NCBI RefSeq assembly: GCF_013377755.1
Contig: NZ_JABXWR010000001.1
Span: 259,104 to 323,103, forward strand
Reading direction: 5' to 3'
Origin: Methanofollis tationis
GTDB lineage: Archaea > Halobacteriota > Methanomicrobia > Methanomicrobiales > Methanofollaceae
Length of the DNA: 64,000 nucleotides
The position numbers and the translations under genes are program-made. The notes under the pieces are model-generated. The model had not been told where the DNA came from, did no database searches, and worked only from the letters and a program-made list of their open reading frames with translations. Below are positions 31,792-54,103 of this stretch, in pieces; the first letter of the stretch is position 1, and each line of letters starts with the position of its first letter.

Positions 31792-32847
31792 TCACTCCCC
31801 CATCTGCCCGATGACCGCCGCGATCGCCCTCGCCGCCTCTCCCTTTCCGAAGACGTCCGACCGCTCCCTCTCGGGCGCGAATGTGCGGGCGGCCCCCACG
31901 ATCGCATCGTAATCGCTCCCCACGAGCACGTTCCAGCCGTCCTCGACGGTCTCCACCCACTCGGTTGTCTCCCGCATCGTGATGCAGGGGACGCCCAGGA
32001 CGTAGGCCTCTTTCTGGACGCCGCCTGAGTCGGTGAGGATCTGTTTTGCCCCGGCTTCCAGGGCGAGCATCTCCAGGTAGCCGACCGGAGGGATGAGCCT
32101 GATCCTCCTCTTCGCCTCTTCGTACAGCCCGGCGTTTTTGAGCATCTTCTCGGTCCTCGGGTGGCAGGGGAGGACGACGTCGCCAAGGTCGCCGAGCGCC
32201 CGCATGATCGCGGCGAGCCGTGCCGGGTCGTCGGTGTTCTCGGCGCGGTGGACGGTGGCGAGGCGGTAATGGTCAAGCCCGAGGTCGGCGAGAACCGGGG
32301 ATGCCCGCGCCACCTCTGCGTGCTCGAGAAGGGCGTCGACCATCACGTCGCCGGTGAGGTGGACGCCGGCGGTGATCCCCTCTCTCCGCAGGTTCTCGAC
32401 CGCCGTCTCTGTCGGGCAGAGGAGGAGGTCTGAGATATGATCGGTGAGCACCCGGTTGATCTCCTCGGGCATCCGGCGGTCGAAGCTCCGCAGGCCGGCC
32501 TCGACGTGAGCCACCGGCACGTGGAGTTTCGCCGCCGCCAGGGCGCCTGCCAGGGTGGAGTTCGTGTCGCCGTAGACGAGGAGGAGATCGGGCTCCTCGG
32601 CCAGGATCACCTCCTCGATCCCGGCGAGCATCGCCCCGGTCTGCCGGCCGTGGGTGCCCGAGCCGATCCCGAGGTTGTGGTCCGGCCGCGGGATCTTGAG
32701 CTCCTCGAAGAAGAGGTCTGACATCTCCCGGTCATAGTGCTGGCCGGTGTGGACCAGGATCTCCTCGTGCTCTTTTCTGAGTTCCCTGGAGACGGGTGCG
32801 CACTTGATGAACTGCGGGCGGGCGCCGACGACGGTGAGGATCTTCAT
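31792..32847 (-). CDS. wecB: UDP-N-acetylglucosamine 2-epimerase (non-hydrolysing)
   Basis: 351 residues, normal length. It converts UDP-GlcNAc to UDP-ManNAc for surface glycans and, in methanogens, for ManNAc-derived sugars of N-glycans. Motifs: VGARPQFIKCAPV at the start, HTGQHYD near residue 35, VEAGLRS, the nucleotide-binding stretch VHRAENTDDPARL, and TDSGGVQKEAYVLGVPCITMRETTEW. No WecC dehydrogenase is adjacent. It sits alone between toxin-antitoxin genes. Confidence 0.93.
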   Translation of the reverse strand: MKILTVVGARPQFIKCAPVSRELRKEHEEILVHTGQHYDREMSDLFFEELKIPRPDHNLGIGSGTHGRQTGAMLAGIEEVILAEEPDLLLVYGDTNSTLAGALAAAKLHVPVAHVEAGLRSFDRRMPEEINRVLTDHISDLLLCPTETAVENLRREGITAGVHLTGDVMVDALLEHAEVARASPVLADLGLDHYRLATVHRAENTDDPARLAAIMRALGDLGDVVLPCHPRTEKMLKNAGLYEEAKRRIRLIPPVGYLEMLALEAGAKQILTDSGGVQKEAYVLGVPCITMRETTEWVETVEDGWNVLVGSDYDAIVGAARTFAPERERSDVFGKGEAARAIAAVIGQMGE

Positions 32848-36510: not shown

Positions 36511-38325
36511 TTAAACCCTATCTTCTCTTCTGTCAAAGAAGGTCCGCAGCCAGATTTCTGTGCAGACGATCCGCCAGATCTCAGGGGAGTAGGTGACCTG
36601 CCCTTCAACATATGCCAGATAACTCCGGCGCACCAGGTCCGCGTCCCAGTATGGCCGCGCCCTGAATCTGTCAGAGGCGAGGATATCCTCCATGAGAGGG
36701 CGGAGTTCCTCCCGCATCCACACCTCCTCGGGGGTCACGAAACCCATCTTGTCCATCCGGCACCTGATATTCTCCGGTACCAGACCACGGATCGCCTGCC
36801 GCAGGACATGTTTTGTCACACCATGCCTGATCTTCTGGTCCAGGGGCAGAGAGGCAAGGTATTCCGCTATCCGGTAATCCAGGAAGGGCACCCGCGACTC
36901 GACCCCGAAAGCCATCGAGTTCCGGTCCTCGTAGTGGAGGAGGGAGGGGAGGTTCGTGGACCTGATCTCCCTGGTGAGCACCTCGGGGAGGGTTCCGCTA
37001 TAGCGGTCGATTGAGGGGATCGCCCCACGGAGGAGAGATCGGCGCTCCGATCGTGCGGCGATCTGCTTCTTTGCATCGAAGAAGAAGCCGCGATGACGGT
37101 AACTGCCGCACACCCCTTCGCAGAGGAGGGCAAGGGGATGGGCCTTCAGGCTCCTGAGATAGGGGACGATGTAGCCGATGTAGCCGCCGAGTTGCTCGTC
37201 TGCACCCTGCCCGTCCAGAACGACCTTGACATGCGCCCCGGCAAGGGCCATCACGCGGTACTGGGCATAGATGGAGAGGGAGCCGAAAGGCTCGTCCTGG
37301 AGATGGACGAGGCGCTCCAGATCCTGTTTTAACGCCTCGGGGTCAGGGGAGGTGCGGTGTGCATCGACCCCTGTCGCCCTGACGACCTCGTCGATATATC
37401 GGCTTTCGTCGAATCTTCCGTCCGGGTAACAGGCCGAGAAGGTCTTCTGTCTCCCGCCGACACTGGAGGGGGCTTCCTGCCTGATCAGGTCGTTGATCAG
37501 GGCGGTGATGGTCGAGGAGTCGATGCCGCCCGAGAGGCAGGTGCCGACGGGGACGTCGCTCCTGAGGCGGAGGCGGACGGCGTCGAGGAGGAGGGCGCGG
37601 AGACGGTCTGCGGCCGACCGGTCATCGGCCCCGGTCAGGGCGTCAGAGATCCTGAGGTCCCAGTAGGGGGTCGGCTCTTTGGGCACCCCCTGCCTGACGA
37701 CCATCGAGTGGGCCGGTGGGAGCTGGAAGACCCCCTCAAACATCGTTTCGGGGGTGTGGTCGAGCACGCCCCATGCAAGATAGTCCATCAGGCGCGTGTC
37801 ATTGGGTCTTTTTCCGACCTCGGGGTGGGCGAGCAGGGCCTTGATCTCTGAGGCGAAGAGGAAGGTGCCGTCGACGATCGTGTAATAGAAGGGCTTGATC
37901 CCGAACCTGTCCCTGGAGCAGAAGAGGTGGTCTTCCTTCAGGTCATAGATAGCAAAGGCCCACATGCCATTGAACCTTTTGACACATTCTGATCCCCACT
38001 CTTCGTAGGCATGGAGGATCACCTCGCTGTCTGTCTGTGAGCGGAAGGCATGGCCGGCGCGGAGAAGGTCCTCTCTGAGTTCACGATAGTTATAGATCTC
38101 CCCGTTGAAGACGAGCCAGAGGGTTTCGTCCTCATTGGCCATGGGCTGGGCGGCCAGATCGGAGAGATCGATGATGGAGAGGCGGCGGTGGGCGAGGCCG
38201 ACCGATCCCTGGAGGTAGGTCCCCTCGCCGTCAGGGCCGCGGTGGGCGAGGCGGGAGGACATGGTCTTGAGGAGAGAGGGATCGGCCTCGCCTGTGGTTT
38301 TATAGATGCCTGCTATGCCACACAT
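36511..38325 (-). CDS. asnB: asparagine synthase (glutamine-hydrolysing)
   Basis: 604 residues. The N-terminal class II glutamine amidotransferase begins MCGIAGIYK, with C2 as nucleophile after removal of Met; LAHRRLSIIDLS and GEIYNYRELR are typical. The synthase domain carries the PP-loop CLSGGIDSSTI near residue 263. Within glycan loci such AsnB-like enzymes are often used to amidate sugar acids (WbpS-type) rather than to make free asparagine; its place between two flippases supports that but does not prove it. Complete frame. Confidence 0.9.
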   Translation of the reverse strand: MCGIAGIYKTTGEADPSLLKTMSSRLAHRGPDGEGTYLQGSVGLAHRRLSIIDLSDLAAQPMANEDETLWLVFNGEIYNYRELREDLLRAGHAFRSQTDSEVILHAYEEWGSECVKRFNGMWAFAIYDLKEDHLFCSRDRFGIKPFYYTIVDGTFLFASEIKALLAHPEVGKRPNDTRLMDYLAWGVLDHTPETMFEGVFQLPPAHSMVVRQGVPKEPTPYWDLRISDALTGADDRSAADRLRALLLDAVRLRLRSDVPVGTCLSGGIDSSTITALINDLIRQEAPSSVGGRQKTFSACYPDGRFDESRYIDEVVRATGVDAHRTSPDPEALKQDLERLVHLQDEPFGSLSIYAQYRVMALAGAHVKVVLDGQGADEQLGGYIGYIVPYLRSLKAHPLALLCEGVCGSYRHRGFFFDAKKQIAARSERRSLLRGAIPSIDRYSGTLPEVLTREIRSTNLPSLLHYEDRNSMAFGVESRVPFLDYRIAEYLASLPLDQKIRHGVTKHVLRQAIRGLVPENIRCRMDKMGFVTPEEVWMREELRPLMEDILASDRFRARPYWDADLVRRSYLAYVEGQVTYSPEIWRIVCTEIWLRTFFDRREDRV

Positions 38326-39937: not shown

Positions 39938-40252
39938 ATCCCCGGATAAACTCGCAAAACACTGAGAGAAGAGGTACCTGATCGCAACATGCGCCAAGTT
40001 CTATATAATTGAGGTCTCTCCGCCACAGAATATTGAGGCTATCCAGAATTTATGGTATTGCGAATCTACCCAGCATCCGCAGTAACGTGATCCCCTTTCC
40101 GAATTATCAACAACCGCGAGATTCGTCGACGGTTTCGATGACACCTCAATCCTCTCCCAGTACTTCGCTAATTTTAGAGACCCCAAATCTCCCTCTACCG
40201 CCCAGAGCCCGCCCAAAATCGAAAGATCTATATAGATTGCAGGCTTCCCCTC
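39938..40252. other. AT-rich intergenic region left of the nested IS
   Basis: About 300 bases with no recognised gene. It must include the left end of the ISH3-like element and the flippase promoter (tctatataattg near 40000-40012 is TATA-like). A second TATA-like string (tctatatagattg, near 40228-40240) stands just before the ISH3-like transposase. Confidence 0.4.
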
Positions 40253-40623
40253 ATGCCTTTACCTAAATCGAGGGTGACCTGCAGAAAGAGCAACATTCTG
40301 AAACCTAAAGACTGTTGCGCCCCTGTTGTTTCGGCACTGGATCAGCATCTAACCATTCCCATTCAGGGAAAACTCACTCAAACAGACTTGATTTCTTCTC
40401 TGGTCGGCATGGCTGTAATGAATCAGTCAGTTCACTCAATCACCCACATCCTGGATCGGGTACCGTGCGAAACGTCCGTTCGCTACCACCTCAAAAAACT
40501 CGATATGGCCGATTTGGAACAGAATAACACCTCGATGTCATCGGCGGTGTAAGTTTGTGCATTTTCGGCGGTCTAAAAGTGTACACCTGCTAACCCTCAT
40601 TCACGTTCTTGAGGGTTGTGGCA

Positions 40624-41868
40624 ATGTTCACTGCGGAGGAGTTCTTTATGATACGCGACTTGCATCACCAGGGGCTGAACATCAGCCAGATCTCACGCAC
40701 AACCGGCTATCACCGAAACACGGTCCGAAAATATCTTGCCGCACAAACCCTGCCGGCACCTGCATCCCGTGGACCCCGACAGAGCAAACTCGACCCGTTC
40801 AAGGCATATATCCATCAACGCATCACCGAGTATCCCCTCAGTGCAGCCCGGATCTATCGTGAAATCCAGGAGATGGGATTTGATGGGAAATGTACCATCG
40901 TCAAAGACTATATCAGCACGATCCGCCCCCGCGAAACGTTACAGGCTGTCCTCCGGTATGAAACCAAACCCGGTGTCCAGGCCCAGGTCGACTGGGGAGA
41001 GTGCAATCACATCGAGGAAGACGGTCACTCCCACAAACTCTCCTGCTTCAGCATGATCCTCGGGTATTCCCGGATGCGCTTCATGGAATTCACCCTCTCC
41101 ACCGACGTCTACACCCTCATTCAGTGCCATCTCCATGCCTTCGACTACTTTGGCGGCTACACTGAAGAGATCCTCTACGACAACATCAAGACGGTGATCC
41201 TCAAGCGGGCACTTCGTGCCAGCGACCACCAGTGGAACGCAAAGTTCGAAGACTTTTTCTCGCACTACGGTTTTATCCCGCGGCTCTGCAGGCCCTACTG
41301 TCCCCAGACCAAGGGAAAGGTTGAGAACTCCATCGGGTACCTGAAACGCGATTTCCTGCTGGGAGGTACGTTCACGTCCCTCGACGACATGAACCGACAA
41401 CTCCTGCAATGGCTCAACCGGATCAACGCCACGCCCCACGGGACCACGAACGAGATCCCGTTCGACCGCCTGGACCAGGAGAACCTGAAACCCATGACTG
41501 GCGTTCCCCCCTACCCGCTCCGAAGAGAAGAACACCGGAAGATTTCGCGCGAGGCCTACGTGTCGTACCGGGGCAACCGGTATTCGGTCCCGTATCGGTA
41601 TGCCGGGAGGGAGGCCGTCCTGGAACTGCAGGATAATCAGATGACAGTCCGCGTCGGCACCGAAGCGGTATGTTCGCATACGATCGTTCCCGGCCATGCC
41701 CGGGTCATCCGGGAGAAGGAGCACTTTTCCGGCCTTCTTGCTGAGGCCATGCAGTGCAATGCACGGTGCAGGAAGACCTCAAAACCACTGTTTTCGATCG
41801 TTGCTCCACAGGTGGAGCAGCGCCCACTGTCAGTCTATGACCAGTTCTCCGAGGAGGTGCGACGATGA
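40624..41868 (+). CDS. istA: IS21 transposase IstA
   Basis: About 414 residues from MFTAEEFFMIRDLHHQGLNISQISRTTGYHRNTVRKYL, an HTH that binds the element ends. The DDE core has QVDWGECNH (Asp), EILYDNIKT (Asp) and KGKVENSIGYLKRDF (Glu). The C-terminal beta-barrel follows (SYRGNRYSVPYRYAGREAVLELQDNQ). Complete. Stop overlaps the istB start by four bases. Works with the ATPase IstB, which remodels the target DNA. Confidence 0.93.
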   Translation: MFTAEEFFMIRDLHHQGLNISQISRTTGYHRNTVRKYLAAQTLPAPASRGPRQSKLDPFKAYIHQRITEYPLSAARIYREIQEMGFDGKCTIVKDYISTIRPRETLQAVLRYETKPGVQAQVDWGECNHIEEDGHSHKLSCFSMILGYSRMRFMEFTLSTDVYTLIQCHLHAFDYFGGYTEEILYDNIKTVILKRALRASDHQWNAKFEDFFSHYGFIPRLCRPYCPQTKGKVENSIGYLKRDFLLGGTFTSLDDMNRQLLQWLNRINATPHGTTNEIPFDRLDQENLKPMTGVPPYPLRREEHRKISREAYVSYRGNRYSVPYRYAGREAVLELQDNQMTVRVGTEAVCSHTIVPGHARVIREKEHFSGLLAEAMQCNARCRKTSKPLFSIVAPQVEQRPLSVYDQFSEEVRR

Positions 41869-42638
41869 CCGCTCTGGTCTATGAACGGGTTCATGATAAC
41901 CTGAAGAGGTTGAAATTGACGACCTTTGAAGCACTTCTCGACAATTATCTTGAGGTTGCTGCAAAGGAGGAACGATCGACCCTTGAAGTCCTCGACTACC
42001 TGCTGGATCAGGAGGTGAAGAGCAAGGAGGAGCGTGCGCTTGAGTTCAGGATGAGGTTAGCAAGTTTTCCGATGGAGAAGAGGTTGGATGACTTCGATAT
42101 GAGTTTTCAGCCATCGCTGGATCCCGCGGTGATCCGGGACCTCTCTTCACTCCGGTTTATCCATCACGCAGAGAACGTGGTGTTTCTCGGACCTCCGGGA
42201 GTAGGGAAGACCCATCTTGCTCTTGCCCTTGGCCACGAGGCGGTGAAGAACGGATTTCGGGTGTATTATGCGAATGCGTCCAGCCTCATTGAACGGTTGG
42301 TGAAAGCGAACCGGGAGAATAAACTTGAAGAGAGGATCAAGGCACTGGCGAAATTCAATCTTCTGATCATCGATGAAATGGGATATTTGCCGTTCAACAG
42401 CGAGGGAGCTCACTGTTTCTTCAGCCTTATTTCACGAAGATACGAGAAATCATCGACGATATTCACCTCGAATAAGTCGTACGGGGAGTGGGGCGAGATC
42501 TTCGGGGATCATGTGATCGCCGCAGCGGTTCTTGACCGGATTCTTCACCACTGCACCACCCTGAACATTAAAGGGGATAGTTATCGCTTGAAGGAACGAC
42601 GGAGGCAGGGGCTTCTTTCACACACCCTGCCAGGATGA
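41865..42638 (+). CDS. istB: IS21 helper ATPase IstB
   Basis: 257 residues. AAA+ ATPase related to DnaC. Walker A is VVFLGPPGVGKTHLALALG near residue 105, Walker B LLIIDEMGYLPF, and the sensor STIFTSNKSYGEWGEIFGD; the N-terminal helical part (LKLTTFEALLDNYLEVAAKEERSTLEVLDYLLDQE) is the usual IstB N-domain. Complete. ATGA overlap with istA. Confidence 0.95.
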   Translation: MTALVYERVHDNLKRLKLTTFEALLDNYLEVAAKEERSTLEVLDYLLDQEVKSKEERALEFRMRLASFPMEKRLDDFDMSFQPSLDPAVIRDLSSLRFIHHAENVVFLGPPGVGKTHLALALGHEAVKNGFRVYYANASSLIERLVKANRENKLEERIKALAKFNLLIIDEMGYLPFNSEGAHCFFSLISRRYEKSSTIFTSNKSYGEWGEIFGDHVIAAAVLDRILHHCTTLNIKGDSYRLKERRRQGLLSHTLPG

Positions 42639-43614
42639 GTTCCGATACTATTATGCGATCGAGGTGTACACTTTTATTCCGTCCGATCTGTACACTTTTG
42701 CACCGCCGTTGACATCGATCCTCACCACCCATATGCACCACGTCCTCAAACCGGGGTACGCCTATCCGTTTGCGATTGACTTTACCAACGATCCGTACTA
42801 CGGGTCAACCGATGAGGAGAATGAGGCCTATATCGTGCGAAGTAAGCGGAAAAAGTCAACAAATGAGTTTTATTCCTACATCACTCTGTATGTGACCACC
42901 AGGAACCGGCAGATGACGCTGGCCGTGTTCCCGGTGCGCCAGAATACCTCGAAGGTCGGATACATCGCGCAATGTCTCGATCGGATCACTGAACTCGGTC
43001 TTCGCATCGAAGTTCTCTGCCTGGATCGGGAGTTCTACACCCGGAAGGTGCTCGGGTTTCTGATGGACGTCCAGGTGCCGTTCATCGTTCCTGTCAGGAA
43101 ACACGGGAAAAGGATGAAACAAGTCCTCCAGGGAACACACTCCCGGTATGCTGAATATCGGATGCACGGAAAACCAGTGCTGGTCCTGACGATTGCGATT
43201 GCCGTGAAGTATGCAAAAGGAAAACGGGGTAAGCGCGGCGTTGAGAATCTGGGTTACGTCGTGGGAAACCTCCGGTGGAATCCCCATCGGGTCCATCAGA
43301 CCTATCGGTCCAGGTTCTCGATTGAATCGTCCTATCGGATGCGCAACCAGGTGAAACCCCGTACGAGCACAAAAAACCCGGTCATCCGGTATCTCTACGC
43401 CATAATATCGTTCCTCCTCAAGAATATCTGGATCGATATACTCTGGAAGCACTTTTCCCCCGTGAAACAGGGACCACAAACCATTGAGGTGCGCGGCTTC
43501 CGGTTCAGCTCCTTCATGTGCATAATCTGGGAGGCGATCCGCACATCGATGAGGGGTGCCAGAGCTATTCCTGTGTTAAGGTATCCTGTTTAGGAAAGGG
43601 AGCGAGAAACGCCG

Positions 43615-44070
43615 TTGAATGAAATGAGAGGGAGGAAGGAATTAGAGAAGTACTGTGACCGGGATCTCTCTCCCGATGAACTCCTGACGAACTACAAGGA
43701 GCAGGGCGCGGTGGAGCGGGGGTTCCGGTTTCTCAAGGATCCCTCGTTCAGGGTGGCGGAGATCTTTCTGAAGAAGCCGTCCAGGATCCAGGCACTGGCG
43801 ATGATCATGGTGCTCTGCCTGTTCATCTATGCGATGACAGAGTTTCGGCTGCGCAGGGAACTGCAGAACGCCAGCGAAACGGTGACCGGACAGACGAAGA
43901 AGCAGACCCAGAACCCAACCCTGAAATGGACCTTCTTCCTCTTTCGGGGAGTCAGGGAACTGAGGTTCAGGGCAGTAGATGGCATAAAAGTGCTTGTTAC
44001 CAATATGACGCCGGAATTGTGGAAGATACTCCGGTTGCTTGGGAGGGAGTATGAAAATTACTACTCATGA
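43615..44070 (+). pseudogene. 3' remnant of an IS1634-like transposase
   Basis: 151 codons matching only the C-terminal part of IS1634/IS4-type transposases: LSPDELLTNYKEQGAVERGFRFLKDPSFRVAEIFLKKPSRIQALAMIMVLCLFIYAMTEFRLR contains the Y-(2)-R/G-(3)-E region with the catalytic glutamate (VERGFRFLK) but the two upstream aspartates are absent. The 5' part was probably lost when the ISH3-like element inserted, since that gene ends just 20 bases away. Confidence 0.8.
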
Positions 44071-44077
44071 AAAAAGT

Positions 44078-44105
44078 GGTGCGGAATGTGGGGTGCGGAA
44101 TGTGG
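44078..44105 (+). repeat. tandem duplication of 14 bases
   Basis: GGTGCGGAATGTGG occurs twice back to back (44078-44091, 44092-44105), just after the transposase remnant and at the border of the AT-rich island. Possibly scar of insertion or excision. Confidence 0.8.
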
Positions 44106-44227
44106 GATACAATATTAGGGAATATAATATAAAGATCTTTCTGTGTTGCTGGGGGCGTTCGGGAAAAGAGGAGCAAGGGAGAGAGTATATGCCCTGGGTC
44201 ATGCGGTGTTTGGGATTGAGAGGCATA

Positions 44228-44743
44228 TTAGAGATCGGGATTTTGTCTGTATTTAATAACTTTTGCCGGTACACCCCCTACCACCGAGTATGGGGGCACA
44301 TCTTTTGTTACAACAGCACCTGCTGCCACTACTGCGCCTTTATTGATTTTTACTCCGGCTAAAATAACACAATTCGCCCCAATCCAGACATCATCTTCGA
44401 CTATAATTTTTTTAGGAGTATGGCCTTGCTTGCATATTGGAATATCTACCCTTAAATAATTATGATTTGCCGATATCAGATGTGTATTAGGCCCAACCTG
44501 AACGTAATTCCCAATATTAATCCCACCATATGCATCAACATAGCAATTTCGATTAATTCCACTAAATGAACCAATAGAAATATTTTCGGGATGTAATAAC
44601 ACAACATCCTCCAAAATGACGAAATTCTTCCCAGAAGACATAAATATGGTGCCATATATTCTGGATCTAAGTGAATATCCCACCTTTCCAGGGATCATTG
44701 ACAGTATTTTAAAGAAATATGTCTGGAGTTCGTCAATAAACAT
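44228..44743 (-). CDS. left-handed beta-helix acyltransferase (WcaF/LacA-like)
   Basis: 171 residues. Repeating hexapeptides ([44 protein letters not shown]) form a left-handed beta-helix, with the catalytic histidine in SANHNY; later repeats are [52 protein letters not shown]. Such enzymes put acetyl groups on sugars of surface polysaccharides. Last gene of the AT-rich island operon. A short hydrophobic N-terminal helix may hold it at the membrane. Confidence 0.88.
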
Positions 44744-44761
44744 ATTCTTACTACCGAATCC

Positions 44762-45901
44762 CTAAAATATACCGCAACACCGAGAACATGCGGGGGTTGC
44801 TCCGACTTTTCTCAGAAAATCTCTAAATGCCATGGCATTTTGACCGAACCAGATCTCATTAAATGTATTTGTATAGATATTCCCATATTTTATATGGAAA
44901 CATCTTGAAGCCGGTATCACGTCTCCGTTTGATAAAACCTGCATATTTGTCCAAGGAACAACACATTTTTTTGATCCTATAAATTGTGATGACTTATGAT
45001 AATATTGCCATATCTGGTCACTTCGATCGATATTTGGAGAGAAATAAACAAACTTACCCTGATAGGTCGCATTAACAGCCTTGATTTCATCTGAAAGAAC
45101 ATCTACATCCACAGAACAAGGAGTGGTCGAACCTACACTACTTTTTTTTACCTCATAAAACCACCCATATTTTTCGTTATGTGACTGTGCCATTTCGTTA
45201 TCTACAAAATTAAGGTGAGTAAATTTGATTCCATCGACACCTAGATCTTTAAATATAGTCGCAGTTTCGGATAAATATTGGTAATTAGCGTCGGATATGG
45301 TAAATGCAACAAATATTTTCGGGAATTTACTTTTGGTTTTTGATTTCATCTCGATAATCTGCTCTATACCACGGTATGATTTTTCGAAACTATTTGGTAC
45401 ACCAACTATGGCATTATGAATGCTCTCTGGACCATGGATAGATATATTTATTAATGGTAATTGAATCTTAACAAGATCCTGCGCAAACTTTTGCAGCAAA
45501 TAACCATTTGTCGTAAGTTCACACATTATATTTTTAGACCGTATATACTTGATCAGATCTGCAATATGAGGATATAATAGAGGTTCTGTTCCATTTATCG
45601 CAATTACCGGAGGATTATCAACGCTATTAACAACGTCCTCAATAAACAGTCTTAAAGTATCTATAGACAATTCTCCGCCATTAGTTACATTCTTATAAAA
45701 TTCCCCGGAACGACGTTGACCAATGTCGCACATTCGACACTTTAGATTGCAGATGCTGTTTAATGAGAGTGCAATCCGCTGGCAATGGGGAGAATTTAAT
45801 TTATTAGGGGGTAATCGATAGATAACATGATAATATCTCCTTTTTAGCCAATCTTCGACCAAACAAGGATTATTTAGGCCATGCATTAATTTTTCAATCA
45901 T
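44762..45901 (-). CDS. radical SAM protein with SPASM-like domain
   Basis: 379 residues. The [4Fe-4S] radical SAM motif is C51-x3-C55-x2-C58 (SICNLKCRMCDIG); AINGTEPLLYPHI is the glycine-rich SAM-binding strand (with N in place of the common GGEP). The C-terminal part has VPWTNMQVLSNGDVIPASRCFHIKYGNIYTNTFNEIWFG...ACSRCCGIF, a SPASM-type domain with several cysteines for auxiliary clusters. Such enzymes modify peptides or sugars. The locus suggests a sugar, lipid carrier or glycoprotein substrate. Its start overlaps the end of the helical-barrel gene by eight bases, so the two are linked. Confidence 0.85.
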   Translation of the reverse strand: MIEKLMHGLNNPCLVEDWLKRRYYHVIYRLPPNKLNSPHCQRIALSLNSICNLKCRMCDIGQRRSGEFYKNVTNGGELSIDTLRLFIEDVVNSVDNPPVIAINGTEPLLYPHIADLIKYIRSKNIMCELTTNGYLLQKFAQDLVKIQLPLINISIHGPESIHNAIVGVPNSFEKSYRGIEQIIEMKSKTKSKFPKIFVAFTISDANYQYLSETATIFKDLGVDGIKFTHLNFVDNEMAQSHNEKYGWFYEVKKSSVGSTTPCSVDVDVLSDEIKAVNATYQGKFVYFSPNIDRSDQIWQYYHKSSQFIGSKKCVVPWTNMQVLSNGDVIPASRCFHIKYGNIYTNTFNEIWFGQNAMAFRDFLRKVGATPACSRCCGIF

Positions 45902-47042
45902 AATTCAAACTCCCAGAAGTCATTCTCTCACCGAGCACACTTAACGCTTCAAAGAGATGTGCCTGGTGGCGGATATAAGATTCTTTTTCCGTACTTCGAT
46001 AATAAAAATATCCTAAGTCATTATACAATGTGGTTTTAACATGTTTATGCGCTTTCAAGGCATATAAAAGATATTTTTTATCCCAATTACTGGCATAAGT
46101 GAAAGTACGAATCGATGCTGCATAACCCCATAATCTAGTTTCGGGGTTTTTATTCATTAAAAATCCGAATCTATTTGCAGTCTGTACTATCATATCACGG
46201 ATCATTATCTTAAGATCTACTTCCTTGAAATCTCGAAGGTTACTCAATAAAAAACCCCGACCATATCCATTTTCTTCAAAAAATATTTTCCAATGTGCAT
46301 CTGTCCCAGTTGTAATGGTTTTTAAAATAGAAGGATCTCTATAAGATAACCAATGTCGCCACAATCCTTCAAGCACATATGCATTATGAAGATTATCTAT
46401 AGTTGGACTCCGTGTGCTGTATCTCCAGAGATATTTCCTATTCTGGGAACTGAGCAGCGGTTGTAGCACTGCTTTAACAACAGGATCAATGTCGCTATGA
46501 GTGTATTCAGAAACTCTCGATAGAAAACCCAATCCTATAGAAACAGCATTGGGAATGAAATACCTATCACCATCATAGGGAGAATAGCACAATATATCAT
46601 TCCCTCCTATTTTCATGAACAGATTATCAACGATCCAGTCCATCGCACTTTCGGCGGTGTTAAGATAAGTACTGTCCTTTGAATACTCATAGTAGTCCAG
46701 AAACGCATGGCCACAAAAAGATGTTGTTAACAGATATGGTCCATTTGCCGGAACACCATCAAAATAAAAAGGCAAACCCCAGCAATAGTCATTATAATGA
46801 GGAGAAGTGTTATTCTTTAACCATTGGAGAGCATCCCTGCATAATCTCAAATATTCGTCGTTTTCAGTTTGTTTATATAGGAATAGATAGCCAACCGCAT
46901 ATTTTGCGTAGACTTCTGGGTAAATCAAACCCTTATATTTCGAATACTCATCATATCCGTATCCAATCTGATCGCCATTAAAATTATTTCTCCATTGGTG
47001 CATCTGTTCCATCGTGTCAATAACTTGAGAAAGAGATGTCAT
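45894..47042 (-). CDS. alpha/alpha-barrel (six-hairpin) protein, possible glycan epimerase or lyase
   Basis: 382 residues rich in paired helices with aromatic and small residues (YPEVYAKYAVGYLFLYKQTENDEYLRLCRDALQWLKNN; LLTTSFCGHAFLDYYEYSKDSTYLNTAESAMDWIVDN; DNLHNAYVLEGLWRHWLSYRD), the pattern of (alpha/alpha)6 toroids seen in glycoside hydrolases, glucuronyl C5-epimerases and prenyltransferases. No signal peptide, so it probably acts in the cytoplasm. Exact activity not recognised. Overlaps the radical SAM gene and the glycosyltransferase gene by a few bases each. Confidence 0.65.
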   Translation of the reverse strand: MTSLSQVIDTMEQMHQWRNNFNGDQIGYGYDEYSKYKGLIYPEVYAKYAVGYLFLYKQTENDEYLRLCRDALQWLKNNTSPHYNDYCWGLPFYFDGVPANGPYLLTTSFCGHAFLDYYEYSKDSTYLNTAESAMDWIVDNLFMKIGGNDILCYSPYDGDRYFIPNAVSIGLGFLSRVSEYTHSDIDPVVKAVLQPLLSSQNRKYLWRYSTRSPTIDNLHNAYVLEGLWRHWLSYRDPSILKTITTGTDAHWKIFFEENGYGRGFLLSNLRDFKEVDLKIMIRDMIVQTANRFGFLMNKNPETRLWGYAASIRTFTYASNWDKKYLLYALKAHKHVKTTLYNDLGYFYYRSTEKESYIRHQAHLFEALSVLGERMTSGSLNYD

Positions 47043-48193
47043 TCACTAACCTCATGATAGATACGATATAGTCTTTGTTCCATATTCTCCCAGTTATATT
47101 TTGATTCTATTGCTTTTCTTCCATTTTTTCCCATTGATATTGCAATTTCAGGATTATTCAAGAGATATGCAATAGAATCTGCGATATTCTGAGGATCGGT
47201 AGGATCCACAAGAATCCCGCATTGGGCATCCTCAACGATGCTTCGGATATTTGGAAAATCACTGGCCACGACAGGAATACCTGCAGCCATATAATCAAAA
47301 AGTTTGTTTGGGGTTCCAATAATGTTATTGTACGAAACAGGTTGGAGCAGGATTACGCCCAATTTAGATGCAGAGAGATAACTTGGGACATCGGGATATT
47401 CGACCCAATCCGTGTAAGTAAAATGATCACAAACTTCATACTCCGCTAAATATTGATTCAAAGACTCCATCTCTGCCGAACTGATCAACATTCGCCCAAC
47501 GATTAAATATAGCAGATCAGGGTAATGTTTTGCTAGGATTGGCAAAGATTTTACGAAAACGTCCAAACCTCGATATTTTATATCAATATTCCCTTCATAC
47601 ACGATCGTATTTCTGTCAATAAATTCACGAACTATTGCATCATTAATGTGACTAAAAATGCCCAGCTCCGGACAAACGTATAGAATATCCACGTTATTTT
47701 TTATATTGTCCTTTGAAAAACGGTCTTTTAGATTGGGGGGAGCAACGATGAAATAGGACACATATGCGCGCGATTTATGTTCGATTTTTTCAACAATATT
47801 CGTGATGATTTTTTTTCTCAATCCACCATAACGAGATGATATCTGACTCGGCCAATGCTCATGGACATCATAAATTATCTTCTTACGACAGAGGAACCTC
47901 AAAAATAATCCAACAATTAATGATTGGGGTTCATGGCAGTGATATATGTCATAATTCAGATTTAACGACCTCAAAAATAATTTACCCATCACGAACAACT
48001 CCCCGATGATCCCTGATCCTCTCCTCTTGATACCTTCAACTTTGATATTGCCAAGGATCGTACTGAAATCATTATCACTCTGGCATATTACGGCGACAAC
48101 ATAACCTGCTTTTTCTAGAGATTTTGCCTCTTTATGGAATATACGGTCATCAAAAGGACTATGCCCCGTTGAAATCATGCACACTTTTGACAT
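47039..48193 (-). CDS. GT4-type glycosyltransferase
   Basis: 384 residues from MSKVCMISTGHSPFDDRIFHKEAKSLEKAGYVV; the 50 codons upstream overlap the next gene and look non-coding. DIYHCHEPQSLIVG is the N-domain motif of GT-B enzymes and the C-domain has GTPNKLFDYMAAGIPVVASDFPNIRSIVEDAQCGILVDPTD, the E-x7-E-like nucleotide-sugar site. It is a paralogue of the glycosyltransferase at 50-51.2 kb (same DTRI/DDRIFHKEA and HEHWPSQ motifs). Sugar specificity unknown. Confidence 0.9.
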   Translation of the reverse strand: MSKVCMISTGHSPFDDRIFHKEAKSLEKAGYVVAVICQSDNDFSTILGNIKVEGIKRRGSGIIGELFVMGKLFLRSLNLNYDIYHCHEPQSLIVGLFLRFLCRKKIIYDVHEHWPSQISSRYGGLRKKIITNIVEKIEHKSRAYVSYFIVAPPNLKDRFSKDNIKNNVDILYVCPELGIFSHINDAIVREFIDRNTIVYEGNIDIKYRGLDVFVKSLPILAKHYPDLLYLIVGRMLISSAEMESLNQYLAEYEVCDHFTYTDWVEYPDVPSYLSASKLGVILLQPVSYNNIIGTPNKLFDYMAAGIPVVASDFPNIRSIVEDAQCGILVDPTDPQNIADSIAYLLNNPEIAISMGKNGRKAIESKYNWENMEQRLYRIYHEVSE

Positions 48194-48206
48194 AATAACC
48201 ACCCAA

Positions 48207-49217
48207 TTAAAACACGGAATAAAGGGACTTTGCAAACTTAGTACGCAGCTTCGCCCATTCGGCATTATAATAAGGAATAATTTGAGGATTAAATGCTGAT
48301 TTAAATTTTGCGATTGGATGGGTATTTGCCCCAATAAAGTCAATATAAGATATTTTATCGGAAAGAGCCTCTTTCAAAGCATGCCCCAACACAGCGCTAG
48401 AACCCTCCAGGTTAAGGGTGTCTCTTCGGGAACCGCCTAACCAGTAGGAGGCACTATTTTTATAGAACAAAAATGTTCCAAATGAGATTGGGCAATCATC
48501 ATGATAGGCAACATACGTCTTGCATGCCCCTCTATTATTCAGTTCCTTCATCAAAGCTGTGAAAAGGTTTTTTGAGAGAGGAGCATCTTCCTTATGCCAA
48601 GCGTACGACTCCATCAGAAGATCATAAATGAGATCGATATCATCATTAACGGTAAGAATCTCCACTGTATTTTTCTCTGCCTTATTAATTGACCAACGAA
48701 CTGATCCGTCATAATGCAGGGATAGATCCTTCAAACTGGGGAAATTATTCAAAAATAGTATATATGTGTAATAAACGGATTCATCCCATCCTTTCCACAG
48801 AAAAGGGCGAATGTCGGTAAGGGCAGGAGAATTAAGAATCTGCGAATAATCATAATGCTCAAGGCAATAATCTGAAACAGATTCAATGACAGAATTATTC
48901 ATGAATTCATTTTTCTTTATGTTCTTAGCATCAGATCCCACAATGATAATACCCCCATATGCTGTGGCAGATTTTATTGGAGGAGAAAAAGCAAGCTTGA
49001 AAAAAAACCTCTTTTCTTCAGAAATACTACATCCTCCAACGAGATCATCCCCTCTAAAGACACCGAGAAGACAGAGATCTGTGCCCCGCTTTTCGGCAAC
49101 GGTTTTTAGCCACCAACTTTTATGGAACAATGTACCTTGAGGAGAATTATCAACAAGGTCATCCCAGATGTGATATTGAGACGGCTTGAGTAATTCTAGA
49201 CGGAACGTGGACGTCAT
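48207..49217 (-). CDS. FemAB/CelD-like GNAT protein
   Basis: 336 residues with two GNAT halves, as in FemAB-like proteins (PF13480): the first contains FHKSWWLKTVAEKRGTDLCLLGVFRGDDLVGG, the second CKTYVAYHDDCPISFGTFLFYKNSASYWLGGSRRDTLNLEGSSAVLGHALKEA and YIDFIGANTHPIAKFKSAFNPQ. Archaeal members lack peptidoglycan and are usually found in glycan loci, where they probably attach amino acids or acyl groups to sugars. Complete. Confidence 0.82.
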   Translation of the reverse strand: MTSTFRLELLKPSQYHIWDDLVDNSPQGTLFHKSWWLKTVAEKRGTDLCLLGVFRGDDLVGGCSISEEKRFFFKLAFSPPIKSATAYGGIIIVGSDAKNIKKNEFMNNSVIESVSDYCLEHYDYSQILNSPALTDIRPFLWKGWDESVYYTYILFLNNFPSLKDLSLHYDGSVRWSINKAEKNTVEILTVNDDIDLIYDLLMESYAWHKEDAPLSKNLFTALMKELNNRGACKTYVAYHDDCPISFGTFLFYKNSASYWLGGSRRDTLNLEGSSAVLGHALKEALSDKISYIDFIGANTHPIAKFKSAFNPQIIPYYNAEWAKLRTKFAKSLYSVF

Positions 49218-49296
49218 TTATTCACCACCATATACTCAGGAGGGCTGATCATATCCAAAAGCAGAGATCTGCATAAATGTTTAATCCTGCCTTCCA
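49218..49296. other. short intergenic gap in the AT-rich island
   Basis: About 80 bases between co-directional genes. No distinct signal beyond a likely ribosome-binding site for the next gene. Confidence 0.3.
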
Positions 49297-50013
49297 TTAT
49301 TTTTTTCCCTTCAAAACATCATGAATAACATCATTTACAGGCGCAATGGTCGCCTTACTCACTATCTGCTCGTACTCTTTGGCCACTAAAGGCGTCCCGC
49401 GAAGTATATCCTCGGGATGAACAAGAACAACAATATTTTGGGACTCACTTTGATCGAGGAGCCAATCTACAGAATATCTATCTTCCCGGTAATTCCGATT
49501 TATCCAGAACGCTGAAGGCGCATAAAGAATGCCATCCTTTAGTTCCATCTTTTCAGTCGGTTTTTCTCCATTTCCTAAAAAATATTTTAAGGAGGCAGCA
49601 GCGGTATATTTTAACATTGTATCAGAATCATAAATTGGATCGTGCCTCCGGGAAAGTTTCATCCCCCCAGATCCATGCTTTGTGACACCAGAGATTGTAC
49701 CTCCAAATTTTTTTGAGACGGCATCAAGATCCCTCATAAAATGGGAGAAATTTTGTGTATGTACGGCATGCAGTCCAACACTATGACCACCATTTAATAA
49801 TCCTTCTGCAAAATCTGAATTCGGCACTGTACCCGGTAAGAAAAAGAGTGAGCCTTTTATTCCTCTATCATCCAGATCTGCGATGAGTTTTTTAAACAGA
49901 TCCAGATACCCCAGACAATCAAATCCAAAAAAGCACTCCTGGTTTACTCTGGCATAGTGGAGAATTCTGTTGCCATAAGAGCCATCAACATCAATTCGCA
50001 GAATTACAGCCAT
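49297..50013 (-). CDS. polysaccharide deacetylase (NodB-like)
   Basis: 238 residues. RIDVDGSYG near residue 6 carries the two metal/catalytic aspartates (D8, D10); GGHSVGLHAVHTQNF near 75 supplies the histidines of the metal site; IVVLVHPEDILRG near 195 gives the late histidine. This is the CE4 (NodB homology) barrel in short form. It would remove N-acetyl groups from sugars in the glycan made by this locus. No signal peptide is seen. Confidence 0.82.
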   Translation of the reverse strand: MAVILRIDVDGSYGNRILHYARVNQECFFGFDCLGYLDLFKKLIADLDDRGIKGSLFFLPGTVPNSDFAEGLLNGGHSVGLHAVHTQNFSHFMRDLDAVSKKFGGTISGVTKHGSGGMKLSRRHDPIYDSDTMLKYTAAASLKYFLGNGEKPTEKMELKDGILYAPSAFWINRNYREDRYSVDWLLDQSESQNIVVLVHPEDILRGTPLVAKEYEQIVSKATIAPVNDVIHDVLKGKK

Positions 50014-50084
50014 AATAAATCGTGTACAATATTATATTCCCTAGAACGGTATTTTACACTTTTCCATTCAATCAATTGATGCCC

Positions 50085-51206
50085 CTATATGATCAGAGTG
50101 GGATCGGAATATATCTCAAATAACTTTACCTCCATTCTATCCCAATTGTATCGTTCTTCAACCGCTTTTTTACCATTCTCACCCATCTCCCTGGCCTTGT
50201 CAGGATTTTTTATCAGATAGTGTATGGCCCCATAAATGTCGTATCTGCCATTACCACCGACCAAGATACCACACTTACAGTCCTCCAGTACCCTTCGGAT
50301 TTCAGGAAAATCGCTCGCCACAACCGGCAGACCGCAGGACATATAGTCAAACAACTTGTTGGGCAGGCCGATATACATATTATAACTGACCTTTTGGAAA
50401 AAAACCAGACCTATCCCGCCTTCACTGATTCTCTTGTACATTTTATCATAGGGCAATATCCCGGTAATGTTAAAATGGTCACTATCCTCTTTCAAGACCA
50501 GATTAAGACGATCATCCAATTTCCCGACGATCGTCAAGATGATATCAGGATAATCGGCCCTCAAACGGGTGACAGCGTCATAGCACTCCTGTAAACCATG
50601 AGAGGTCTGCAATTTCCCTCCCATATATATCAGTTCCCGGGAATTTTTAGTGCATGTATCAACACAAAGGGAATACTGAAGGACAGGGACGTTTAAGATG
50701 ACTCTGAGGGGTTTTCCGGAATTGTTGAACCTTTCGGCGACACTCTCACTTACCGCAAGGATGCTGTCAGAAAATCCCGATAAAAAAAGTTCGTATTTTA
50801 ATATAATCTTTTCAAGCAGACCATATAGGATGTTCGTATCGTTTATTCCAATATCCTCCAAAAATTGACTGGGCCAGTGCTCATGTGCATCGTAGACCAA
50901 TTTTGTTCCATTTACCAGTTTGAATATCACACCGAGAAATAGAGAGCCCAATTCATGGCAATGATAGATATCACAATCTTCTTTTAAGCCCGATAAAAAA
51001 ATTCTCCAGAGCGTAAGAAAATGAAAAATCTTATTTTTCGCCTTTTTAATTGTTTTTACCTCTACATCCCCGACGACTCTATTGATTTCCTCATCAGACG
51101 GAGCAATCACCACTACATCATACTTCTTGGCAAGACTTACTGCTTCTTTATGATATATCCGGGTATCAAAAGGAGGGTGAACCGTGGTCAGCATGCAGAT
51201 CTTCAC
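50085..51206 (-). CDS. GT4-type glycosyltransferase
   Basis: 373 residues starting MKICMLTTVHPPFDTRIYHKEAVSLAKKYDVVVIAP. DIYHCHELGSLFLG, YDAHEHWPSQFLEDIG and GLPNKLFDYMSCGLPVVASDFPEIRRVLEDCKCGILVGGNGR define a GT-B family 4 enzyme. It is a paralogue of the one at 47-48.2 kb. First gene of the AT-rich island operon; the stop of top6A transcription lies just downstream of the island in the other direction (both are on the minus strand, top6A upstream), only ten bases separate them. Confidence 0.9.
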   Translation of the reverse strand: MKICMLTTVHPPFDTRIYHKEAVSLAKKYDVVVIAPSDEEINRVVGDVEVKTIKKAKNKIFHFLTLWRIFLSGLKEDCDIYHCHELGSLFLGVIFKLVNGTKLVYDAHEHWPSQFLEDIGINDTNILYGLLEKIILKYELFLSGFSDSILAVSESVAERFNNSGKPLRVILNVPVLQYSLCVDTCTKNSRELIYMGGKLQTSHGLQECYDAVTRLRADYPDIILTIVGKLDDRLNLVLKEDSDHFNITGILPYDKMYKRISEGGIGLVFFQKVSYNMYIGLPNKLFDYMSCGLPVVASDFPEIRRVLEDCKCGILVGGNGRYDIYGAIHYLIKNPDKAREMGENGKKAVEERYNWDRMEVKLFEIYSDPTLII

Positions 51207-51215
51207 GCTACCACC

Positions 51216-52307
51216 TCACAGCACCCCCATCTCACTCAACCTCGCCGGCAAATACTCCCTCGTCACAAAATCCAGCCCCCGCGCCGCGAACGCCTGCTGC
51301 TCAGACTTCAGCCCCATCGCCAGCTGCAACCCGATCTGCTCCCGCCAGTAGTCCGTCGCAAACCGCGGGTCGGTCAGCTCCGCCTTCAAGGCCGCCACGT
51401 CCTGCTCGGAAAGATGATCGGCCGGCAGATCATAATCCCGAATATCAGAGGGCTGCACCCCGATGAACTGCGCCTGCGGCGTCGCCAGCAACTCCGACAT
51501 ATGCGCCGCCTTGATCGAGCCGTAGGCCACCGAAGCATAGATCCGGTACGACCAGGGGTCGCCGTCGGTGAAGACGACGACCGGCAGGTCGAACTCCTCG
51601 TGGATACGCTTCAGGAGCCGCCGGGTCGAGCGCGCCGGCTGGCCCTTCAGGTGGACGAGCGCCGCCCCGTACTCCTCGTCGAAGCCGTTCTCGATGAGGC
51701 GGGCGTACATACCGCCGGTCTCCAGGGCGATCACGAATTTTGCGTCGTGGTCCAGGAATTCGAGGGCGTCGACGTTGTTGGGGATCTGGTAGCCGGTCTC
51801 GCCGACGTTCTCCTGGCAGTGGATCTCCTGCACGCCCCGCCGCGTCTTCTCCCGGATCCTGATCGGCCCGAATATCGAGGCCCCGTCCTCCTCGGGCCGG
51901 AGGTGGTAGATCTCCCGCTGGATATCGGTGAGAATCTCCAGGTCCTCGACGACCCTGTTGCTCTCGTCCTGGGCGCCGAACTTCGCCCCCTTCCAGCCCT
52001 CGGAGATATAATACATCTCTCTTAAGGTGGAGGACCGGTTCTCGGCGATCTGCTGCTTTAAAAAGCCGATCACGTAGGCCATCTTCAGGAGGTGCGAGGC
52101 GCCCTTCGCCGTCTGGGCCGAGCGCACGCTCTCGCGGTCGCCGTACTTCCAGACCTCGGACGAATCGTCGTACTCGATATTGTGTTTCGTCCGCGTGGGA
52201 AGGCTGATCGAGGGGATCTGCCCATCGACGAGCTGGTCGTACCAGCGCTCGGCGATCTCCATCAGCCGCGCCCGCCCCAGCGCCTCCATCTCCTCCTTCG
52301 TCGTCAT
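51216..52307 (-). CDS. top6A: DNA topoisomerase VI subunit A
   Basis: 363 residues. The catalytic tyrosine is in [15 protein letters not shown] (Y99 or Y100), on the winged-helix (CAP-like) domain. The Toprim domain contains [17 protein letters not shown] (acidic Glu) and [24 protein letters not shown] (DxD). With Top6B it forms the A2B2 type IIB topoisomerase that relaxes and decatenates DNA. The archaeal enzyme is homologous to Spo11. Overlaps the top6B end by four bases. Confidence 0.95.
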
Positions 52308-54103
52308 AGGTGCACCACCACTTTCTTTGCCTCTTCGACGCCGCGCACATCCAGCATCCCGCCGCCCTTTCCGGGATATACCGCGTGCCAGCCCTCGCCG
52401 GGCCCCAGGGCGCAGTTCCAGAGGCGCGTGAACTCGCCGTCGAGGTCGCTTGCGAAGTCGGGCTTCGGTTCGGCTCCCTCGCCGGCGTCCGACGAGATAT
52501 CGTAGATCACGAGGGCGAGGTTCTCGTGGGTGTGGTTATGGACGTCGATCTGCACCACACCCTCACGCACGCTCTTGCGCGCCACCAGCCGCCGCATGAT
52601 CCGCCCCTCGATCGCCGAGATGTCGGGCACCGGGCGCTCCACGATCTCGGCCACCTTCTCGGCGATCGCCGGCATCACGGCGCAGACCGCCCGCGCCCGG
52701 TCGTCCTGCTGCCGGTTCCGGTCCCGGCGGGAGAGGTAGGCCTTCAGCTCCCGCCCCAGGTCCTGGAGGGCGAGGGTGATCTCCTTCTCGACCTCGGGGA
52801 TCGAGGCGACGGCGTCCTTGCTCTCTGAGGTGAAGGGCACGTTCGTCGAGGCCACGTGGACAAGGACGAGCACCGGGCCGTTCGGGAGGCCGGCCTGGGA
52901 GAGCCCGTAACTCTTCCAGTTCACGTTCGAGACGGCGTTTGTTATCGCGCAGGCGCCCTGCTGGTAGATCAGGGGCACCCGGTTTGCAAACCGCATCACC
53001 TGCGCCGTCCCGTCGGCCGTGAGCTTGCCGCCGTAGCCGATCGCCGCCTCCACCACGAAGGGGTGGCCTGAGAAGACCGAGGGCGGGCGGGTGCGCGCCT
53101 TGACGAAGTCGAGCTGGAACTCTTTCTCGAGCCCCTGCGTGATCAGCTCCTCCCCGATCGGGGAGAGGCACTGGCTCATCGGCGGCGCCGGGACGTGCAC
53201 CGACTGCATCGCCATAAGAAGCGCCTTCTGCGCATCGGCGCCGAGGTTTTGCATCCGCGCCTTTGCGGGCAGGCCGGCCGCCCCGGCGATCTCCCCGGCG
53301 GTCTTCTTCCCGACGCGCGAGAAACTCTCGACCAGGAAATCTTCGAGCGTCGCCTCGGGCATCGCCGCCGCCATCCGCTTCAGCGTGCCGAGCTCGATCC
53401 CGTGCGGGTGGGGCTTGATCGCCTGCGGCGACCTGATCACCTCGTCGGAGACCCGCTCGAAGGTCGTCGCCTCGCCGTCGATCTCCACTCGGATCCGGGC
53501 GTGCGGGTTCACGACCGCCGTGTACTTCAGGTAGTCGATCAGGCGCTTTCTCGCCGCGAGGGAACTGGTGAACTCGAGCTCGATCCTGGTGCCGTGCGTC
53601 CGGTCCCAGGCGACCTCTTCGTGCTCCAGCACCTGCGGCTCGTTCGTCTCGGTCTGGATCATCAGGGAAAAACGGTGGGCCGGGACCTTTGCCGAGGTGC
53701 GGGAGACGACCATCGCGGGCGTCCCGGTGGTGAGCTGCGCATACAGCACCGCCGCCGAGATCCCGATCCCCTGCTGCCCGCGCGACTGCCTGATCTGGTG
53801 GAAGCGGGAGCCGTACAGGAGTTTTCCAAAGACATACGGCACGTTCTCCGGGACGATCCCGGGGCCGTTGTCCTCCACGGCCACGCGGTAGGCATCCGCC
53901 GAGACCTTCCGCACCGAGACGAAGATGTCGGGGAGCACTTCGGCCTCCTCGCAGGCGTCCAGGGCGTTGTCCACCGCCTCCTTGATCGTGGTGATGATCC
54001 CCCTCACCGGCGAGTCGAAGCCGAGGAGGTGTTTGTTCTTCTCGAAGAACTCGGCGACGCTGATGCTTTTCTGCTGTTTGGCCAGGTCTTCAGCGAGCGC
54101 CAC
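52304..54103 (-). CDS. top6B: DNA topoisomerase VI subunit B
   Basis: 599 residues. GHKL ATPase motifs are [21 protein letters not shown] (N box) and [17 protein letters not shown] (G1), then [19 protein letters not shown] (G2). The helix-two-turn-helix region and the transducer follow, with the conserved lysine in the switch region ([13 protein letters not shown] is the ATP lid). The C-terminal Ig-like domain is present. Complete. It overlaps the hisS end by 14 bases. Confidence 0.95.

Follow-up and report, generated by a model that had tools for sequence, protein, structure and literature searches.

AglQ of Haloferax volcanii (HVO_1523) is a soluble protein of archaeal glycan assembly and is described as a probable isomerase, and its authors compared it with toroid epimerases and glucuronyl hydrolases (PMC3827465). 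Agl32 of Halobacterium salinarum is described as a D-glucuronyl C5-epimerase that consists of one helical domain, acts on a lipid-linked uronate, and is encoded in a glycan gene cluster (PMC13308652). VNG1058H has been described as an AglQ homologue that is presumed to make iduronic acid (PMC4335974). Among radical SAM proteins, SPASM domains typically carry two auxiliary clusters, and a twitch domain is a shortened SPASM domain that holds one. BtrN, a twitch radical SAM cyclitol alcohol dehydrogenase, has one auxiliary cluster with four Cys ligands (PMC9012708). The radical SAM neomycin epimerase NeoN inverts a sugar carbon and uses a Cys as hydrogen donor (PMC10991966). The titles and abstract openings of the literature searched gave no description of radical SAM chemistry in archaeal glycan assembly.

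The locus compared here lies in a 64,000-nucleotide stretch of Methanofollis tationis DNA (the window), where a radical SAM gene and a gene for an alpha/alpha-toroid-like (barrel) protein are part of a low-GC island. The island (44228-51206) has 38.4% GC against 62-65% in its flanks, with values of 36-41% over roughly 44-51 kb (about 7 kb), and is bordered on the right by topoisomerase VI subunit A. Leftward from the island follow an IS21 pair with a split DDE transposase, a flippase, an asparagine synthase, a second flippase, and a WecB-type epimerase. The flippase, asnB, and WecB genes are on the same strand as the island genes. The features are as follows:

31792-32847, minus: UDP-GlcNAc 2-epimerase (WecB type), 67% GC
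36511-38325, minus: asparagine synthase (asnB-like), next after the flippase, as it also is in the Methanofollis contig L091
38429-39997, minus: Wzx-type flippase
40609-44070, plus: IS21 istA/istB and split DDE transposase (two ORFs), between the flippase and the acetyltransferase
44228-44743, minus: hexapeptide acetyltransferase, left end of the low-GC island
44762-45901, minus: radical SAM protein with a truncated SPASM (twitch-like) domain, P0001, 379 aa, from the ORF and Pfam
45894-47042, minus: alpha/alpha-toroid-like protein P0002, 382 aa, divergent within an unnamed family of archaeal glycan loci
47039-48208, minus: GT4 glycosyltransferase, start codon uncertain (its ORF opens at TTG 48343)
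48207-49217, minus: FemAB/GNAT-like (Acetyltransf_6) protein
49297-50013, minus: 238-aa protein without a Pfam match, putatively NodB/deacetylase-like by motif reading only
50085-51206, minus: second GT4 glycosyltransferase, right end of the low-GC island

Both ORFs of the pair are located where an earlier note had placed them, each on the minus strand, and the genes of the radical SAM protein and its helical-barrel-like neighbour overlap as it had claimed. The overlap is 8 bases, with the radical SAM ATG inside the last codons of the barrel gene. The WecB gene is about 11 kb from the island and has host-like GC. The island contains no nucleotide-sugar dehydrogenase, the nearest one found being about 65 kb away, beyond the window; the organism's own genome has three nucleotide-sugar dehydrogenase genes over the cut-off. 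The island DNA has no match in plasmids, no Rfam family is found in 40000-52500, and the window contains no tRNA. An OrfB/IS605-TnpB-type transposon protein is encoded at 30104-31204, close to the glycan region.

One close relative was found, a Methanofollis MAG contig (L009/L091), which was also the single locus given by a search of genome contigs. The proteins of the pair are 95% and 93% identical to those of the contig, the radical SAM protein being at 93%. The contig preserves the order FemAB, GT4, barrel, radical SAM, and acetyltransferase, after which come partial matches to flippase and asnB; insertion-element genes are absent from the corresponding place. The flippase homologue of this contig (L091, 6175-7083) matches in part only (ORF 6628-7083) and may be broken. 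Against the orthologues in L009, dN/dS is 0.147 for the radical SAM gene, 0.166 for the barrel gene, and 0.262 for FemAB, and these values indicate that the genes are maintained, the radical SAM and barrel genes under purifying selection. The island is a horizontally acquired, maintained surface-glycan cassette.

P0001 belongs to the radical SAM superfamily (Radical_SAM PF04055, 57.6 bits against a Pfam cut-off of 29.5) and also exceeds the cut-off for SPASM (PF13186, 38.5 bits against 21.5). C51, C55, and C58 are present as claimed earlier, in a CxxxCxxC motif at residues 51-58, and so is the Cys-rich C-terminal end, with C313, C334, C372, C375, and C376. GGEP is indeed replaced, by INGTEP (residues 102-107) and not by the ANGTEP that had been read there. 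The seven-Cys motif is the SPASM complement for two auxiliary clusters. Such a Cys set is absent from P0001, in which the five residues just named are the only Cys after residue 262 and the chain ends at residue 379, shortly past C376. Since the Cys are too few for two auxiliary clusters and the chain ends so soon, P0001 appears twitch-like, with a single predicted auxiliary cluster and five candidate Cys. BtrN chains align weakly with residues 310-376 in a PDB search (E 0.25 and 0.36). NeoN is likened to P0001 by description, as a radical epimerase of a sugar carbon, and not by sequence; that C375 or C376 might serve as a hydrogen donor in the manner of NeoN is speculation. Together with its context, the likeness to BtrN and NeoN suggests that P0001 may act on a sugar by redox or radical chemistry. 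An AlphaFold model from two input sequences has a mean pLDDT of 38.5 and is too poor for use.

P0001 has few full-length relatives. One is the orthologue in Methanofollis, at 93%, and the other, at 31% (E 1.8e-42), is a protein of 451 aa from a genome of the same order. The remaining matches, among 26 of the 199 genomes of the order, have E values of 1e-10 to 1e-14. Across the phylum 6 of 392 genomes have matches at 1e-15, no relatives were found in viral contigs, and none in plasmids at 1e-15. The 31% relative has the same unusual C-terminus, with the run RCCGI. Its neighbours (L090) match DAHP/KdsA-type synthase, CMP-sugar transferases, SIS isomerase, NeuB, WecB-type epimerase, and DegT, and the surrounding operon is read from these matches as one for Kdo and nonulosonate synthesis. 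At 0.4-14.6 kb of L090 (G001:C1:2814001-2834000), apparent KdsA/B/C/D-like genes stand beside NeuB, NeuA-like, WecB-type, and DegT genes, and the relative sits between the Kdo-type and the nonulosonate-type genes. The weaker radical SAM matches L101-L105 were set aside as a different subfamily by their scores and, for L101-L104, by gene lists, L105 having been scanned with the query set only.

P0002 is without a clear catalytic class, as the earlier note had said, since Pfam gives only toroid matches below the cut-offs. It scores 19.9 bits against GH76 (PF03663, cut-off 25.9) and 15.2 bits against GH88 (PF07470, cut-off 26.6), the Pfam model that GH105 shares with GH88. GH125 is not among its three Pfam matches at E up to 1, and there is no match to the D-glucuronyl C5-epimerase domain C5-epim_C (PF06662). 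Apart from GH76, these are the families with which the note had proposed an HMM comparison. The AlphaFold model, again from two input sequences, has a mean pLDDT of 40.2 and is likewise too poor for use. In the family tree P0002 groups with L018, a relative at 28% identity across residues 22-368, with support but on long branches. This group is without the Asp and His that are invariant in all 29 rows outside it, the two being replaced in P0002 by R303 and W305, and the chemistry of P0002 may thus differ from that of the family.

The barrel family is unnamed, archaeal, and rarely bacterial. A phylum search found it in 24 of 392 genomes. Its distribution in the sampled order is patchy: of 199 genomes, 5 have a match at E up to 0.001, and two of these belong to the genus of the window. 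Neither P0002 nor the family profile has relatives in viral contigs. A plasmid search with L019 gave 30 records, including Methanosarcina, Haloferax, Vibrio, and Pseudoalteromonas. The alignment A1 (32 rows) omits duplicates of the window and L009 copies, L036, L026 and L038 (no ORF at the cut), and two matches without loci. Besides M1, its invariant residues are N165, Q200, W206, Y208, H219, F255, G344, and R358. No NCBIfam match names the family. Pfam matches scatter over the 32 members, with GH88 in 14 (best 7.9e-12), GH76 in 12, Pec_lyase and GH127 in 9 each, squalene cyclase in 6, the C5-epimerase C-terminus in 5 (weak, best 1.8e-6), and LanC in 5. This scatter is the usual toroid cross-talk. 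The profile of A1 weakly matches PDB chains of cellobiose 2-epimerase, GH76, and GH88, with squalene cyclases in the same list.

Some single members have neighbours of their own. A bacterial barrel member on a plasmid of Vibrio sp. THAF191d (L113), whose record is nearly unannotated, shares its stretch with homologues of WecB and nucleotide-sugar dehydrogenase. The closest distant relative of the barrel adjoins a 443-aa protein (L077 3739-5070, G439) with a D-glucuronyl C5-epimerase match below the cut-off (E 0.0036), and a polysaccharide deacetylase gene is near the latter. PglZ-like genes of the alkaline-phosphatase fold are near the barrel genes of three haloarchaeal plasmids (L015, L016, L017); Halobacterium proteins annotated with alkaline-phosphatase domains are reported to be glycan sulfotransferases (PMC11980604).

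The neighbourhoods of the family were compared, at E up to 1e-6, in 27 barrel-bearing stretches and in 20 random control stretches from 17 genomes that also carry a barrel member. Among the 27 are the window itself and L091, its orthologue; phylogenetically, the rows are not independent. WecB homologues were found in 15 of the 27 and in none of the controls, and nucleotide-sugar dehydrogenase homologues in 12 against 1. DUF354 (9/27) and FemAB/GNAT (7/27) homologues were absent from all 20 controls, while the L079 orthologue of the GT4 glycosyltransferase P0003, used as query, matched 14/27 against 1/20. An AglB homologue occurs in a single barrel-bearing stretch, its own query source L079, where a barrel member is near the AglB-like oligosaccharyltransferase, and in no control. 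Other control matches were asnB in 2/20 and flippase and acetyltransferase in 1/20 each. Each count includes the source stretch of its own query, which was L078 for WecB, L079 for the dehydrogenase, GT4, and AglB, L015 for DUF354 and the PglZ-like protein, and L112 for the deacetylase and GNAT. Absences mean little in the short stretches L077 (5 kb), L091 (9 kb), and L078 (11 kb).

In Haloferax mediterranei (plasmid pHME505) and Hfx. lucentense (pSVX82-2), a polysaccharide deacetylase gene flanks the barrel gene on one side and two GNAT genes flank it on the other, and the same clusters carry wecB, nucleotide-sugar dehydrogenase, aminotransferase, Gfo/Idh, and acyltransferase genes. This gene set resembles a diacetamido-uronate pathway. 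These loci and the glycan region of the window have in common a deacetylase (only putative in the island), a barrel member, GNATs, wecB, GT4, and an acyltransferase, but the plasmid loci have no annotated radical SAM gene, and their barrel member is distant from P0002. Taken with the WecB and dehydrogenase counts, the Haloferax clusters indicate that the barrel family belongs to glycan assembly, where it very probably meets acetamido-uronates or their products. The earlier suggestion of a carbohydrate substrate is thus supported by the gene content of the island and by these two counts.

AglQ was recovered with a DNA pattern derived from its published residues, which gave one exact match in 157 genomes (L099), a 371-aa ORF with 16/16 listed residues in place at zero offset. 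The best other ORF scanned for this fingerprint had 7/16. Like the barrel, AglQ is of the toroid type and belongs to archaeal glycan assembly; unlike a family member, it aligns with the barrel profile too poorly to be of use (7.1 bits in hmmsearch, confined to a short patch; hhalign probability 2.2%). The identification of P0002 as AglQ was therefore rejected. Agl32, like the barrel, is a helical protein encoded in a glycan cluster, and is set beside it by description and not by sequence. Its identification was reportedly made in a separate paper, and it is presumably the same protein as VNG1058H. The primer pattern of VNG1058H, which is only presumed to be Agl32, matched 0 of 391 genomes. In the family taken to be Halobacteriaceae the barrel profile and AglQ each match 1 of 26 genomes, and so low a count for the barrel profile suggests that Agl32 is of a different family. 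The barrel would thus work in the same sort of place as AglQ and Agl32, while its membership of either family is not supported.

The overlap had been taken by the earlier note as the mark of a two-step enzyme or complex. That the two proteins form a dedicated complex, in which one partner makes a radical-derived intermediate, e.g., a ketosugar, and the other resolves it, is quite improbable, even though the 8-base overlap and the adjacency are kept in two genomes of the genus Methanofollis. Of the 27 barrel-bearing stretches, only 2 have a P0001-like radical SAM gene, namely the window and the Methanofollis contig, both of one genus, and the nearest distant radical SAM relative (L090) stands without a barrel in another glycan operon. 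A scan for CxxxCxxC proteins of more than 180 aa in 23 stretches, 21 of them with a barrel of other lineages, gave only the Methanofollis contig, L090, and L085, the last with one ferredoxin-like ORF. Overlaps are also operon-wide and not special to the pair, the barrel start lying inside the end of the GT4 gene (4 bases, 47039-47042). Since the pair is so rarely together, the close overlap reflects a compact operon and not a conserved partnership. The two genes do not look like an obligate pair, and rather like co-expressed tailoring steps. The note had reckoned with two outcomes against its idea, an ordinary hydrolase family for the barrel and a lack of co-occurrence, and the latter was found while the former was not.

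It is somewhat unlikely that the barrel is a glycoside hydrolase or lyase (GH88-, GH76-, or pectate-lyase-like) that trims or proof-reads the glycan, with the radical SAM protein acting independently. The weak Pfam matches of the family to GH88, GH76, and Pec_lyase agree with such an enzyme, as do the best PDB profile matches, which are GH76 mannanase chains (4.2e-5), and the GH88 matches in 14 of the 32 members leave room for a hydrolase role. However, P0002 itself is below all Pfam cut-offs, toroid families cross-match to the extent that squalene cyclases appear in the same PDB list, and the barrel neighbourhoods are biosynthetic and not catabolic. Little credence can be given to P0001 as a peptide or enzyme maturase (for a RiPP, or TIGR04317-like for an oxidoreductase) that was carried along in the island. 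TIGR04317, the tungsten-oxidoreductase maturase family, is its best NCBIfam match, but the score of 101.8 bits is far under the cut-off of 380 and places P0001 outside that family. The intergenic gaps in the island (18, 79, and 71 bases) leave no room for a separate RiPP precursor gene, and the island contains no oxidoreductase.

We consider it moderately probable that both members of the pair are sugar-tailoring enzymes, encoded in a surface-glycan cassette that was acquired laterally, and act through the steps given below. The sugar-tailoring assignment is well supported, while we infer both reactions, the substrate, and the lipid-linked state of the chain. The assignment is supported by the content of the low-GC island, the same-strand flippase, asnB, and WecB genes, and the link of the barrel family to WecB and dehydrogenase. 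AglQ (PMC3827465) and Agl32 (PMC13308652), described as helical-toroid isomerases of archaeal N-glycan sugars, also support it, as do the nucleotide-sugar dehydrogenases of the organism's own genome and the place of the 31% radical SAM relative in a putative Kdo/nonulosonate operon. It is weakened by the loss of the Asp and His in P0002, the long branches, and the lack of homology to AglQ, and by an island that has no nucleotide-sugar dehydrogenase and has WecB about 11 kb off with host-like GC.

In the proposed scheme, the GT4 enzymes would assemble a lipid-linked oligosaccharide at the cytoplasmic side. The toroid enzyme would modify an acetamido-hexuronate or amino-sugar residue by ordinary acid-base chemistry, the step being most likely an isomerisation, in the form of a C5-type epimerisation, of a residue that the chain already contains. 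The radical SAM protein would abstract a C-H hydrogen from a sugar in that same chain and then, with its single auxiliary cluster, oxidise or epimerise that carbon. Acetyl- and acyltransferases would finish the decoration, and the flippase would export the glycan for attachment to a surface protein or lipid.

The sugars on archaeal surfaces have unusual chemistry, and only a few of the enzymes that make them are known. The barrel family, with 32 archaeal rows and plasmid matches in Vibrio and Pseudoalteromonas, is a repeatedly linked partner of acetamido-uronate synthesis and offers a definite starting point in the search for a new epimerase or lyase. The radical SAM protein, if it acts on the glycan, would bring radical chemistry into archaeal glycan assembly. 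It is conceivable, if unlikely, that the twitch radical SAM protein oxidises or inverts a carbon of a lipid-linked acetamido sugar independently of O2, and that the barrel, as a new Asp/His-swapped epimerase or isomerase family, completes the change. If true, methanogens would have, in this radical-plus-barrel step, a so far unrecognised way of making unusual sugars.
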